Shown here one piece after another: positions 6,714-32,942 of a stretch of DNA of 33,071 bases (positions within the stretch are counted from its first letter, which is position 1; each line of letters opens with the position of its first letter). Source of the stretch: Opitutia bacterium (lineage in GTDB: Bacteria > Verrucomicrobiota > Verrucomicrobiia > Opitutales > UBA953); assembly GCA_947456525.1 (NCBI GenBank), contig CANGRI010000010.1:1-33071 (forward strand), in the 5' to 3' direction. A program made the translations under genes and the position numbers. The notes under the pieces are model-generated. The model saw only the letters and a program-made list of their open reading frames with translations. It had not been told where the DNA came from and ran no database searches.

Positions 6714-6787
6714 TGGTGCGGGTAACCAGATTCGAACTGGTGTATCCACTTTGGAAGAGTGGTGTCCTACCACTGAACGATACCCGC
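6714..6787 (-). tRNA. tRNA-Gly (anticodon TCC)
   Basis: Read on the minus strand, the acceptor stem GCGGGTA pairs with TACCCGC. The D-arm is GTTCAGTGGTAGGAC, the anticodon stem CCACT/AGTGG encloses loop CTTCCAA (anticodon TCC), and the T-arm holds GTTCGAATC. The CCA end is encoded at 6714-6716. The discriminator base is A (plus-strand T at 6717), whereas bacterial tRNA-Gly usually has U. Its body is nearly identical to the neighbouring tRNA-Gly(CCC), suggesting tandem duplication with anticodon change. Confidence 0.95.
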
Positions 6788-6803
6788 GTGGCCAAGGACG
6801 CTT

Positions 6804-6832: not shown

Positions 6833-6863
6833 GCCTGCCCATCGGCCTGACGGCCGTTTCGGG

Positions 6864-6934
6864 AGCGGGTAACCAGACTCGAACTGGTGTCACCACTATG
6901 GGAAAGTGGGGTCCTACCACTGAACGATACCCGC
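6864..6934 (-). tRNA. tRNA-Gly (anticodon CCC)
   Basis: On the minus strand, the acceptor GCGGGTA pairs with TACCCGC. The anticodon stem CCACT/AGTGG encloses TTCCCAT (anticodon CCC) and the T-arm holds GTTCGAGTC. The discriminator is U as usual for bacterial tRNA-Gly, but the next three bases read CCC rather than CCA, so the CCA end would have to be added after transcription. It lies 76 bp upstream of tRNA-Gly(TCC) on the same strand. Confidence 0.95.
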
Positions 6935-6952
6935 GTCGTCCGGAACACGGGA

Positions 6953-14866: not shown

Positions 14867-15244
14867 GCCTGAGGTAGGGACGTGATTACCATCGCGTCCT
14901 CCCTTTAAATCTTGTTTTTGGGTAGGGTCTAGCATCTCTGCTCGACCGCGGCCGACCAAGGATGGTCAGCCCTACCAAGAAACATTTTCGGGTCCCAGGT
15001 CTCGGCCCACAGGTCTCAGGTACGGTTTATCAGGTGCAGGTGCGGGTACGGGGCAAAATTCAGATCCTGAACCTGTACCCGAACCTGAATACCTGAACCC
15101 GGCTCCCGACTGCCGAGACCCGAGACCCGAGAAGTTTCCCAGCTCTAGCCCTAGCTCTGGCCCTAATTTAACCTTTGCACTGCCCTTAATCTGGCCAACC
15201 AGCCAACTGGTCAACGGATCAACTCGCGCGGCTTCGCGCCGCGC
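14867..15244 (+). repeat. Repeat island 1 between DegT gene and glutaredoxin-like gene
   Basis: No coding sequence is seen. The island contains the 56-bp double hairpin at 14921-14976. A stretch of short tandem words follows: GGTCCCAGGTCTCGG-type at 14991-15027 with its inverted counterpart CGAGACCCGAGACCCGAG at 15114-15132, and CAGGTG/CGGGTA words at 15031-15050 with complements GAACCTG/TACCCGAACC at 15068-15097. A CTAGCCCTAGCTCTGGCCC tract is at 15145-15165. It closes with inverted octamers CTGGCCAACCAGCCAAC at 15191-15207, continuing to about 15226. The island lies between two convergent genes. Confidence 0.85.
14921..14976 (+). repeat. 56-bp REPIN-like double hairpin, type with GGTCGAGCA stem
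   Basis: GGTAG, a 9-bp stem (GGTCTAGCA/TGCTCGACC, one mismatch) with 4-nt loop, a 2-nt linker, a second 9-bp stem (GGCCGACCA/TGGTCAGCC, one mismatch), then CTACC. A near-identical copy is at 27152-27207. Confidence 0.85.
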
Positions 15245-17614: not shown

Positions 17615-17757
17615 CGGGTGACGGGTGACAGCCACAGTTGTCAGCGACTCAGGAGTCGGCCTCTCGGCCATCAGCCGCAGGAACCTGGAGCCGGCTGCCG
17701 AAAGCTGAACGGCTGACACCCGAATGGCTGATGCCCCGGTGGCCGGCACCTGTCACC
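17615..17757 (-). repeat. MITE-like element, full copy in reverse orientation
   Basis: About 143 bp bounded by CGGGTGACGGGTGACAG and its counterpart CACCTGTCACC. Read in reverse it aligns along its length with the full copy at 21691-21834, including GGCCACCGGGGCATCAGCC and GGTTCCTGCGGCTGATGGC. Confidence 0.8.
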
Positions 17758-20509: not shown

Positions 20510-20605
20510 GCCGCAAAGTTAGTTGACCGGTTGACCAGTGGGCCGGTTGGCCAGAACTACGATGAGAGTATTGAGTATGGAGTATCGGGGGAGTACTTGT
20601 CTTGA

Positions 20606-20631
20606 GGTAGGGTCAGCACTGCGTGCTGACC
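20606..20631 (+). repeat. Single GTAG hairpin (type GGTCAGCAC)
   Basis: GGTAG followed by a perfect 9-bp stem, GGTCAGCAC/GTGCTGACC, with a 3-nt loop TGC. It has the same architecture as the other GTAG hairpins with an unrelated stem sequence. Confidence 0.8.
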
Positions 20632-21593: not shown

Positions 21594-21641
21594 AGATGCG
21601 CCGTTAGTTGACCGGTTGGCCAGTGGGCCAGGGATGCAAAG

Positions 21642-21690: not shown

Positions 21691-21834
21691 CAGGTGACGG
21701 GTGTCGGCCACCGGGGCATCAGCCCTTCGGGCGTCAGCCGTTCAGCCATCGGCAGCCAGCGCCAGGTTCCTGCGGCTGATGGCTGAGATGCCGATTCCTG
21801 AGCCGCCGACGCCCAGGCCCTTCACCCGTCACCT
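21691..21834 (+). repeat. MITE-like element, full copy with 12-bp terminal inverted repeats
   Basis: It is bounded by AGGTGACGGGTG (21692-21703) and its exact reverse complement CACCCGTCACCT (21823-21834). It carries internal short palindromes such as GCCCTTCGGGC and has no coding potential. About 144 bp long; a full reverse copy lies at 17615-17757 and half copies at 23045, 28810 and 31269. Confidence 0.82.
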
Positions 21835-22984: not shown

Positions 22985-23044
22985 TAAGTGCAAAAGTGCA
23001 ACCGGTCTGCGGCCTGTGCAAAAATGAAAAAGCAAAACGCCTTT

Positions 23045-23132
23045 CAGGTGACAGGTGACGGCCAACTGGGCATCTGCTTTTCGGGTATCAGCCGTTCAGC
23101 CATCGGCAGCCGGCGCCAGGTTCCTGCGGCTG
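23045..23132 (+). repeat. MITE-like element, half copy
   Basis: The left part of the element (CAGGTGACAGGTGACGGCC through GGTTCCTGCGGCTG) breaks off exactly where the other half copies do and joins TAATGGGTAGGG of the next hairpin. Confidence 0.78.
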
Positions 23133-23137
23133 TAATG

Positions 23138-23166
23138 GGTAGGGTCGGGACCGCTTCACGACATAG
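23138..23166 (+). repeat. Single GTAG hairpin (type GTCGGGAC)
   Basis: GGTAG, GGTCGGGAC-CGC-TTCACGAC, ending CATAG. It carries one extra change (GCTTC for GCGTC) compared with other copies. Confidence 0.8.
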
Positions 23167-23176
23167 TTGCATCTAA

Positions 23177-23232
23177 GGTAGGGACGGCTCTCCGAGCCGT
23201 CCACTCGGCGGGCTCGGAGAGCCCGCCCTACC
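23177..23232 (+). repeat. 56-bp REPIN-like double hairpin
   Basis: GGTAG, perfect stem GGACGGCTC/GAGCCGTCC with loop TCC, linker ACTC, perfect stem GGCGGGCTC/GAGCCCGCC with loop GGA, CTACC. All four arms pair fully. Confidence 0.9.
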
Positions 23233-27112: not shown

Positions 27113-27448
27113 GAGTATTGAGAATAGAGTATCGGGAAAGTGATGGCTTTGGGTAGGGTCGAGCATTCTTGCTCGACCGTGGCCGACCAAGGATGGTCAG
27201 CCCTACCAAGAAATATCTCGGTTCCCAGTTCTCAGCCATCAGGTCTCTGGTAAGGGTTATCAGGTGCAGGTACGGGGGTGGGGTAAAATATGCGCCCCCG
27301 GCCGATCATCCGGTCTCCGGTTCCCCCTTGAGTTAATTCCGCAGCGATCCTTGGCCACTGGTCAACTTGTCAACCGGCCAGCTAGTTAGTCTCTCCGGCC
27401 AACAGGCCAACCGATCAACTGATCATCCCTGCCTCTCCTCTTAATAAA
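27113..27448 (+). repeat. Repeat island 6 between bi-domain dehydrogenase and wecC
   Basis: No gene. The order is GAGTATTGAGAATAGAGTATCGG (27113-27135, like 20564), 56-bp double hairpin (27152-27207, like 14921), GGTTCCCAGTTCTCAG and CAGGTGCAGGTACGGGGG words (27210-27280, like island 1), GATCATCCGGTCTCCGG module (27304-27320) with TTGAGTTAA, inverted 8-mers CAACTTGTCAACCGGCCAGC (27364-27383) and GGCCAACAGGCCAACC (27400-27415), then GATCAACTGATCA. The AT-rich CTCTTAATAAA precedes the start. Confidence 0.85.
27152..27207 (+). repeat. 56-bp REPIN-like double hairpin, type with GGTCGAGCA stem
   Basis: GGTAG, perfect stem GGTCGAGCA/TGCTCGACC with loop TTCT, 2-nt linker, stem GGCCGACCA/TGGTCAGCC (one mismatch) with loop AGGA, CTACC. 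It matches 14921-14976 in length and nearly in sequence. Confidence 0.88.
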
Positions 27449-28672: not shown

Positions 28673-28730
28673 AGGCCCGACGCGTGAGTTGATCAGTTGA
28701 CAAGTTGGCAAGTTGACAAGGGATGCAATG

Positions 28731-28756
28731 GGTAGGGATGCAATGACATCGCATCC
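28731..28756 (+). repeat. Single GTAG hairpin (type GGATGCAATG)
   Basis: GGTAG followed by GGATGCAATG-A-CATCGCATCC, a 10-bp stem with one non-Watson-Crick pair and a one-base centre (so in practice a larger loop). It has the same GTAG foot with another unrelated stem. Confidence 0.7.
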
Positions 28757-28809
28757 GCTCGCTCAAGGGGAGACCGGAAACCGGAATGTTAGCTTGGGGC
28801 ATTTTCTTT

Positions 28810-28897
28810 CAGGTGACGGGTGTCGGCCACCGGGGCATCAGCCCTTCGGGCGTCAGCCGTTCAGCTCTCGGCCGCCGGCTCCGGGTTCCCGCGGCTG
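28810..28897 (+). repeat. MITE-like element, half copy
   Basis: CAGGTGACGGGTGTCGGCC through CGGGTTCCCGCGGCTG, stopping at the same internal point as 23045-23132 and followed by CAATGGGTAGGG. Confidence 0.78.
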
Positions 28898-31139: not shown

Positions 31140-31168
31140 GGTAGGGTCGGGACCGCGTCACGACATAG
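31140..31168 (+). repeat. Single GTAG hairpin (type GTCGGGAC)
   Basis: GGTAG, GGTCGGGAC-CGC-GTCACGAC, ending CATAG. It lies about 50 bp after the heparinase-type stop codon. Confidence 0.82.
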
Positions 31169-31268
31169 CGGCATCTAGCCTCACAAATTTTCGGGTGTAA
31201 GGTGGCAGGATAACATTCACTCAAAGAGAGACCGGGAACCGGGAGGTTTGCTTCGGTCATCATTCTCT

Positions 31269-31353
31269 CGGGTGACGGGTGACGGCCACCAGGGCATCGG
31301 TCTTTCGGGTGTCAGCCATTCGGCCTTGGCAGCCGGCTCCAGGTTCCCGCGGA
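31269..31353 (+). repeat. MITE-like element, half copy
   Basis: CGGGTGACGGGTGACGGCC through AGGTTCCCGCGGATG, followed by TAATGGGTAGGG. More diverged than the copies at 28810 and 32963 but with the same end point. Confidence 0.75.
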
Positions 31354-31360
31354 TGTAATG

Positions 31361-31389
31361 GGTAGGGTCGGGACCGCGTCACGACATAG
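31361..31389 (+). repeat. Single GTAG hairpin (type GTCGGGAC)
   Basis: GGTAG, GGTCGGGAC-CGC-GTCACGAC, ending CATAG; a second copy within the same island. Confidence 0.82.
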
Positions 31390-31399
31390 TTGCATCTAA

Positions 31400-31455
31400 G
31401 GTAGGGACGGCTCTCCGAGCCGTCCGTTAGGCTGGCTCGGAGAGCCTGCCCTACC
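31400..31455 (+). repeat. 56-bp REPIN-like double hairpin
   Basis: GGTAG, perfect stem GGACGGCTC/GAGCCGTCC with loop TCC, linker GTTA, stem GGCTGGCTC/GAGCCTGCC (one mismatch) with loop GGA, CTACC. Confidence 0.88.
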
Positions 31456-31673
31456 CAAGGCACCCTAGCCAATCATCCGGTTCCCCTTTGAGTCAGTGTT
31501 CGGTCTCCCTTGTCCACTGGCCCACGTGCCAGCTTTTCCCCTGCGACTCCCTCGCATCACCTTTGCACTGTCCTTAGTCCGGCCCTCCGGCCAACTGGCC
31601 AACCGATCAACTGATCAACTCGGTCTCTCCCCTTGTCCTCGTGCCCCCGTGCCAGCTTTCCCCTGAACTAAAA

Positions 31674-32822
31674 ATGCCCTCCCTCGCCCTCATCGTCGGA
31701 ACTCGCCCCGAGTGCATCAAGCTCGCGCCGGTGTTCGCCGAGCTGCGTCGGGCGGGCAAGGTGCGTCCGCTCCTGGTCTCGACCGGCCAGCATCGCGAAC
31801 TCCTCGACCAGGCGCTCGCCTCGTTCGGTCTCAAGCCGGATCTCGATCTCGGGCTCATGCAGCCCGGCCAGTCGTTGCCCGAGCTCACGGGCCGCGTGCT
31901 GGCCGGCGTCTCCGCCTGGCTCGCCGAAGCGAAGCCCGCCGCGGTCCTCGTGCAGGGCGACACCACCACCGTCCTCGGCGCCTCGATGGCGGCCTTCTAC
32001 GCCGGCATTCCTGTCGGACATGTCGAAGCCGGCCTGCGAACCGACGACCTTCGGTCGCCGTTCCCTGAGGAGATGAACCGTCGCGTGACGTCGACGCTCG
32101 CCCGCTGGCATTTCTGTCCGACCGAACAGGCGAAGGCCAATCTGCTGCGCGAGGGCATCTCCGCCGTGCATTGCCATGTCACCGGCAACACCGTGATCGA
32201 CGCCTTGCTCGCGACCCGTGCCCGCATCGGCGCATTGGAAGCCGCTGCCGTCGGCGCCCGCCTCGGCATCGCCCCGACGTTCGTCGCCAGCCACCTCGCC
32301 ACCCCGACGTCGCGCTGGATCCTCGTCACCGGCCATCGCCGCGAATCCTTCGGCCCCGGCTTCGAGAATCTTTGCCGCGGCATCCGTCAGCTGGTCGACG
32401 CCCATCCCGATCTCGGCGTCGTCTATCCGGTGCACCTCAACCCGCAGGTCCAGGAGCCGGTGCGCCGTCTACTGGGCGGCCACCCGCGCATCGCGCTCGC
32501 CGCCCCGGCCGCCTATGAGGATTTCGTCTGGCTCATGGATCGTTCGTCCTTCGTCCTGACCGATTCCGGCGGCGTGCAGGAAGAAGCCCCTTCGCTCGGC
32601 AAGCCCGTGCTCGTCATGCGCGACAATACCGAACGCCCCGAAGGCCTCGCGGCCGGCACGAGCGAACTCGTCGGCACCGACCCAGCCCGTATCGTCGCCG
32701 CCGCGTCTCGTCTCCTTTCCGATCCGGCCGAATACGCCCGCCGTTCCCAGCTCCGTAATCCTTATGGCGATGGCACCGCCGCCGCGAAGATCGCGCGGGT
32801 GATGGAGTCGGCGCTGAGTTAG
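31674..32822 (+). CDS. wecB: UDP-N-acetylglucosamine 2-epimerase (non-hydrolysing)
   Basis: A 382-residue GT-B fold enzyme that interconverts UDP-GlcNAc and UDP-ManNAc, the substrate of WecC. Family motifs in order: GTRPECIKLAPV (10-20), QGDTTTVLGAS near 93, GHVEAGLRTDDLRSPFPEEMNRR near 118-138, GNTVIDALL, TGHRRESFGPGFENL and SGGVQEEAPSLGKPVLVMRDNTERPEGL. The length is typical. The ATG at 31674 is chosen over one 11 codons upstream, which would add residues encoded by the repeated CGTGCCAGCTTTCCCC leader. AACTAAAA precedes the start with no Shine-Dalgarno. It is the last gene visible; the locus probably continues beyond the window. Confidence 0.95.
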   Translation: MPSLALIVGTRPECIKLAPVFAELRRAGKVRPLLVSTGQHRELLDQALASFGLKPDLDLGLMQPGQSLPELTGRVLAGVSAWLAEAKPAAVLVQGDTTTVLGASMAAFYAGIPVGHVEAGLRTDDLRSPFPEEMNRRVTSTLARWHFCPTEQAKANLLREGISAVHCHVTGNTVIDALLATRARIGALEAAAVGARLGIAPTFVASHLATPTSRWILVTGHRRESFGPGFENLCRGIRQLVDAHPDLGVVYPVHLNPQVQEPVRRLLGGHPRIALAAPAAYEDFVWLMDRSSFVLTDSGGVQEEAPSLGKPVLVMRDNTERPEGLAAGTSELVGTDPARIVAAASRLLSDPAEYARRSQLRNPYGDGTAAAKIARVMESALS

Positions 32823-32913
32823 TTGACCCGTTGATCAGTTGGCCGGTTGGCCAGAGGAAATACGTCGTTAGTTGACCGGTTGAAAAGTTGGCAAGTTGAC
32901 AAGAGATGTAATG

Positions 32914-32942
32914 GGTAGGGTCGGGACCGCGAAACGACAGTG
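32914..32942 (+). repeat. Single GTAG hairpin, decayed copy
   Basis: GGTAG, GGTCGGGAC-CGC-GAAACGAC. Two changes in the right arm weaken the stem. Confidence 0.7.

Follow-up and report, generated by a model that had tools for sequence, protein, structure and literature searches.

The 56-bp doublets in the window, by which we mean the whole stretch of 33,071 nt analysed here (contig C10 of a 1.8 Mb assembly that is 65% complete), are very probably REPINs copied in trans by class-specific RAYTs. RAYTs, also known as TnpA_REP, are single-strand Y1/HUH transposases related to IS200/IS605. The assignment is based on the anatomy of the doublets, their copy number, conserved loops combined with covarying stems and the presence of RAYTs with the same flanking hairpins. 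It is further based on the RAYT tree, in which each REP class has one branch, and on a gene gap that is occupied by different REPs in different relatives.

Six doublets are present in the window, each exactly 56 bp in length and with GGTAGGG...CCCTACC ends. Four of them belong to family A and two to family B; the two families are equal in length and have unlike loops and linkers. No strand is assigned to them:

14921-14976, REPIN of family B; its hairpins are common to the flanks of RAYTs L097 and L099
17839-17894, REPIN of family A, based on anatomy and folding
23177-23232, REPIN of family A, the element under study; its 26-nt half GGTAGGGACGGCTCTCCGAGCCGTCC recurs unchanged at the flanks of RAYTs L115 and L253
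27152-27207, REPIN of family B, based on anatomy and folding; family B hairpins flank RAYTs L097 and L099
28942-28997, REPIN of family A, based on anatomy and folding
31400-31455, REPIN of family A, based on anatomy and folding

Each doublet consists of two REPs in inverted orientation with the GTAG outermost, and in the REPs of the window this motif sits directly 5' of a short hairpin. Family A features 9-bp stems, 3-nt TCC-type loops and a 4-nt linker, family B 9-bp stems, 4-nt loops and a 2-nt linker. The pattern GGTAGG-N44-CCTACC yielded six matches in the window and none in 200 dinucleotide shuffles, confirming the six 56-bp copies at 14921, 17839, 23177, 27152, 28942 and 31400 named in the original prediction.

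Within family A, the foot is constant, the TCC loop is near-constant and the stems change in pairs. The stem cells are paired in 97.4% of cases, both sides have changed in four of nine pairs and the covariation is 0.353 compared to 0.129 in shuffles, a difference that lends support but is not a probability, as the sequences are related. The compensatory changes that had been noticed in the stems are hence real in this family. Stems that vary next to a constant foot and loop are not in line with MITEs of a DDE transposase or integron attC-like sites, which the inverted-repeat ends, short length and dispersed occurrence of the doublets might otherwise suggest. No target duplication was seen beside the doublets of the window, and a dedicated RAYT is located next to each class, again arguing against such elements, which we regard as a highly improbable explanation.

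When folded as DNA, each of the six doublets beats its own shuffles (z -3.3 to -6.4), either as two hairpins or as a single long hairpin. All six are intergenic, between long ORFs. Good folding of the paired hairpins and the intergenic position of six of six doublets would also be expected of host elements, i.e. bidirectional terminators, mRNA stabilisers or DNA-binding sites, rather than of mobile DNA. That the hairpins are mainly such elements is nevertheless very unlikely, because class-specific RAYTs carry the same flanking hairpins, the RAYT tree tracks the REP class and one orthologous gap holds different families or none (see below). Roles in termination, stabilisation or binding could still be secondary.

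Genome-wide counts were obtained by pattern searches. The pattern GGTAGG-N(34-64)-CCTACC revealed 64-65 doublets in the genome (65 matches on each strand) compared to 8 for the reversed control pattern, so that a copy number too low for mobility, named beforehand as an argument against REPINs, was not observed. The doublets range from ~52 to 73 bp in length and include several further families besides A and B, indicating that a length of 56 bp characterises families A and B but not the doublets as a whole. The original prediction of one 56-bp pattern is therefore correct for the length of the six window copies, but these constitute two families, and the length does not extend to the genome. 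The 26-nt family A half occurs in 13 copies in the own genome, and 30 of the 55 congeneric genomes contain it. Matching contigs of relatives, which include BGOI01000001.1 (Opitutae bacterium BS6) and DKND01000049.1 (Opitutia bacterium UBA7397), relate the genome to freshwater Opitutae and assign the genus to Verrucomicrobiota. Across the 55 genomes, those with more RAYTs tend to have more doublets (Spearman 0.61, compared to 0.31 for the control pattern; both values are uncorrected for kinship and completeness).

The own genome features two short RAYT genes (~150 aa). The frame of gene L078 (G000:C118:790-1233) is open, and the class O unit GGTAGGGTCGGGACCGCGTCACGACATAG is found on either side of this gene; gene L003 (G000:C73:1236-1679) has an in-frame stop near the N-terminus and class D REPINs on both flanks. 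The Pfam model Y1_Tnp gave a single weak RAYT match in the genome; the second gene was found via an alignment of the RAYTs of the genus. The proposed search for a RAYT in the genome thus returned one open and one broken gene. Both classes, O and D, are also present in the window, which harbours at least ten single GGTAGGG-hairpin units of further classes:

14873-14899, plus strand, single REP of class J (GGACGTGATTACCATCGCGTCC); class J flanks RAYTs L095 and L096
17905-17933, minus strand, single REP of class O; the class O unit flanks the open RAYT
20606-20631, plus strand, single REP of class D (TCAGCACTGCGTGCTGACC); class D REPs flank the broken RAYT L003 of the genome
20643-20668, plus strand, single REP tentatively assigned to class K; class K flanks RAYTs L102, L112 and L116
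21642-21670, plus strand, single REP of class O; the class O unit flanks the open RAYT
23138-23166, plus strand, single REP of class O (GGTAGGGTCGGGACC..TCACGACATAG), directly before a family A doublet; the class O unit flanks the open RAYT of the genome on both sides
28731-28756, plus strand, single REP of class H (GGATGCAATGACATCGCATCC); class H flanks RAYTs L088 and L111
28903-28931, plus strand, single REP of class O; the class O unit flanks the open RAYT
31140-31168, plus strand, single REP of class O; the class O unit flanks the open RAYT
31361-31389, plus strand, single REP of class O; the class O unit flanks the open RAYT
32914-32942, plus strand, degenerate single REP of class O

The class O unit stands immediately ahead of family A doublets of the window.

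Other repeats were observed in the same contig. A repeat of ~90-140 nt, rich in GGTGACGGGTGTCGGCC motifs, is located at 23041-23132, 28806-28897, 31264-31355, 21693-21833 and 17617-17757. Some of its copies are inverted, it is often found just upstream of REPs and it has matches in most genomes of the genus; it is possibly another intergenic element family. An imperfect long palindrome, TCGGGTCCCAGGTCTCGG ... CCGAGACCCGAGACCCGA, follows both family B doublets (14988-15140 and 27218-27289). Short-period runs of the AGTTGACCGGTTGGCCAG type occur in both orientations in many intergenic gaps (15190-15224, 20512-20555, 21606-21640, 28678-28721, 31578-31612 and 32812-32855). Two 75-nt copies on the minus strand (6715-6789 and 6862-6936), which are 89% alike, resemble tRNA genes by eye.

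In the 55 congeneric genomes searched, ~50 short RAYTs or fragments were found. At nearly all of the 49 RAYT loci whose flanks were read, GTAG hairpins are located on either one side or both, and these hairpins represent 16 classes. In sister species, L098 and L115 are flanked by exactly the family A hairpins of the window, L097 and L099 by exactly those of family B. The RAYTs show the HUH motif and the catalytic-tyrosine helix, and the motifs PDHxH, FDHR and YxxxNPxRA are conserved. With the NCBIfam model NF047646 ('REP-associated tyrosine transposase', cut-off 80 bits), the RAYTs of families A (82.9) and B (81.9) pass, and those of classes D (74.6) and O (67.1) fall below the cut-off. Mobilisation of the REPINs by a RAYT, as originally predicted, is supported by these family A and B loci, both of which pass the model. 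The related expectation of a RAYT flanked by the same hairpins holds for families A and B in relatives and for classes O and D in the own genome, but a family A RAYT was not detected in the own 65%-complete assembly.

RAYT type matches REP class. Fifteen label changes, the minimum, suffice to place the 16 REP classes on a maximum-likelihood tree of 46 RAYTs, compared to a mean of 36 after shuffling; near-copies inflate this difference, although most classes are nonetheless set apart by long branches. All 13 classes with at least two members form one side of a single branch. Two observations on individual loci were made in addition. At L095 and L096, the hairpins of the class J pairs up- and downstream of the RAYT are ~65 bp apart compared to 2-4 nt in families A and B, indicating that pair spacing is class-specific. 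The public record of locus L129 (CALPIW020000235.1) bears the name Polynucleobacter meluiroseus; its RAYT is 100% identical to that of family A in Opitutae, and this bin is therefore probably mislabelled.

We propose that two GTAG-tagged REP hairpins arranged head to head form a non-autonomous element, and that these REPINs would be copied in trans by RAYTs. Each REP class has its own RAYT type, sited between copies of that class. By analogy with the biochemistry of group 3, the perfect-palindrome type, the folded single strand would be recognised by the RAYT via the GTAG foot and the loop, with tolerance of stem changes that keep the pairing, and would be cleaved and rejoined. Perfect palindromes are the substrate of group 3 RAYTs, and cleavage depends on certain loop bases and the GTAG (PMC8266576). 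The constant foot, near-constant loop and pairwise stem changes of family A are in line with this. For the REP of Stenotrophomonas maltophilia, a loop base was critical and stem changes were partly tolerated in vitro (PMC8266576).

Comparison of orthologous gaps shows how the elements differ between relatives. The gene gap of the doublet at 23177 contains family A doublets in the own genome and in G014, family B doublets in G062 and G029 and other REPs in G069 and G007. In G004, the gap is free of REPINs and the flanking genes are 92-94% identical; a relative of the long palindrome TCGGGTCCCAGGTCTCGG ... CCGAGACCCGAGACCCGA fills it. The gaps display polymorphism only, as a clean junction missing just a doublet was not found, also when an orthologous empty site for 23177 was sought. 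A precise difference of 39 bp was observed for the class O unit (window positions 23138-23176), which is absent in G014 and lies between GGTAGGG direct repeats; it could reflect an insertion or a deletion between the repeats. Because the differences between orthologous gaps extend over longer stretches, recombination may move part of the material.

Family A may be an active or a relic population in its own genome, a question raised by the failure to find its RAYT in the 65%-complete assembly. The home locus of the family A RAYT lies beside gpmI in two congeners. Since neither gpmI nor the neighbour gene was found in the own assembly, the absence of the RAYT there is uninformative. As a sub-case of the REPIN interpretation, family A could have been spread by a RAYT that has since been lost from most lineages, perhaps including its own, with the copies decaying or kept for host functions, e.g. 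at transcript ends. The chances of this are nearly balanced, leaning slightly to the negative. In line with a loss, the family A RAYT was seen in only 2 of 55 genomes compared to 30 of 55 for the family A half, and both genes flanking it were found in 16 congeners with no RAYT between them (two of the contigs end inside the second gene). The home locus without a RAYT is likewise present in G028 and G004 (94-95% complete, with 18 and 9 family A halves), where no family A RAYT was found at this locus or elsewhere in the search; family A thus persists without its RAYT, or the RAYT was missed. Decay of REPs that outlive their RAYT is a published model (PMC3686654), and missing RAYT loci have been described (PMC3733652). 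On the other hand, the gpmI contig and the contig of the neighbour gene in G070 (13 copies) both end within ~100 bp of the gap, and with an assembly break at this position a RAYT could be missed. The exact 26-nt identity kept in many copies also argues against long decay. A test for an association between abundance of family A and an unassembled home locus of its RAYT gave no support (p 0.17).

Outside the genus, the exact 26-nt family A half was found in five of the genomes sampled, which represent two other families in the order. At L253, in another family of the order, a RAYT with ~40% identity to L115 is located between GGACGGCTC-TCC and GGACGCCTC-TCC hairpins, the same stem pair as beside L115, indicating that the hairpin is conserved while the enzyme diverges. 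L259, in another of these five genomes, is a broken RAYT between hairpins of the same GGACGGCTC-TCC / GGACGCCTC-TCC type. Tentatively, and with somewhat more doubt than confidence, we suggest that one genus of ~2-Mb Opitutae genomes hosts an unusually dense radiation, in which at least 16 RAYT-REP pairs take turns at the same gene gaps, the REP sequence is conserved (several families of the order share an identical 26-nt family A half) and the RAYTs have diverged to ~40% identity. If true, this radiation would provide a natural series for reading the recognition code between RAYT and hairpin. Many RAYT-REP pairs with class-specific loops and a matching tree make up a comparative set for determining which residues read which loop, and the same set bears on the fate of a REPIN population after RAYT loss. 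Few mobile elements are long-lived in bacterial genomes, and REPINs, under a domesticated transposase, belong to these few.

Published work already covers GTAG REPs, close head-to-head pairs, hetero-pairs and repeat-specific RAYT loci, including those of Verrucomicrobia (Opitutus terrae; PMC3733652). The GTAG REPs of O. terrae and other bacteria are alike in the foot, stems of 6-9 bp, head-to-head pairs, hetero-pairs with different stems and repeat-specific RAYT loci (PMC3733652). The GTAG-17 pairs of O. terrae are only 1-2 bp apart (PMC3733652), whereas linkers of 2 and 4 nt were found here, in a different lineage with small Opitutae genomes; this comparison is one of anatomy. The REPtron of S. 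maltophilia, with a group 3 TnpA_REP, shares the perfect palindrome, the 3-nt loop and the GTAG (PMC8266576). In contrast, the family A stem comprises 9 bp instead of 8 bp and its loop is TCC instead of GCT. The REPINs of Pseudomonas fluorescens are likewise inverted REP pairs, which are treated as the mobile unit (PMC3116915), but a single genus has more than ten RAYT-REP pairs in circulation in the present case. The number and density of coexisting RAYT-REP pairs in one small-genome genus may be the notable part, and may be of use to specialists.
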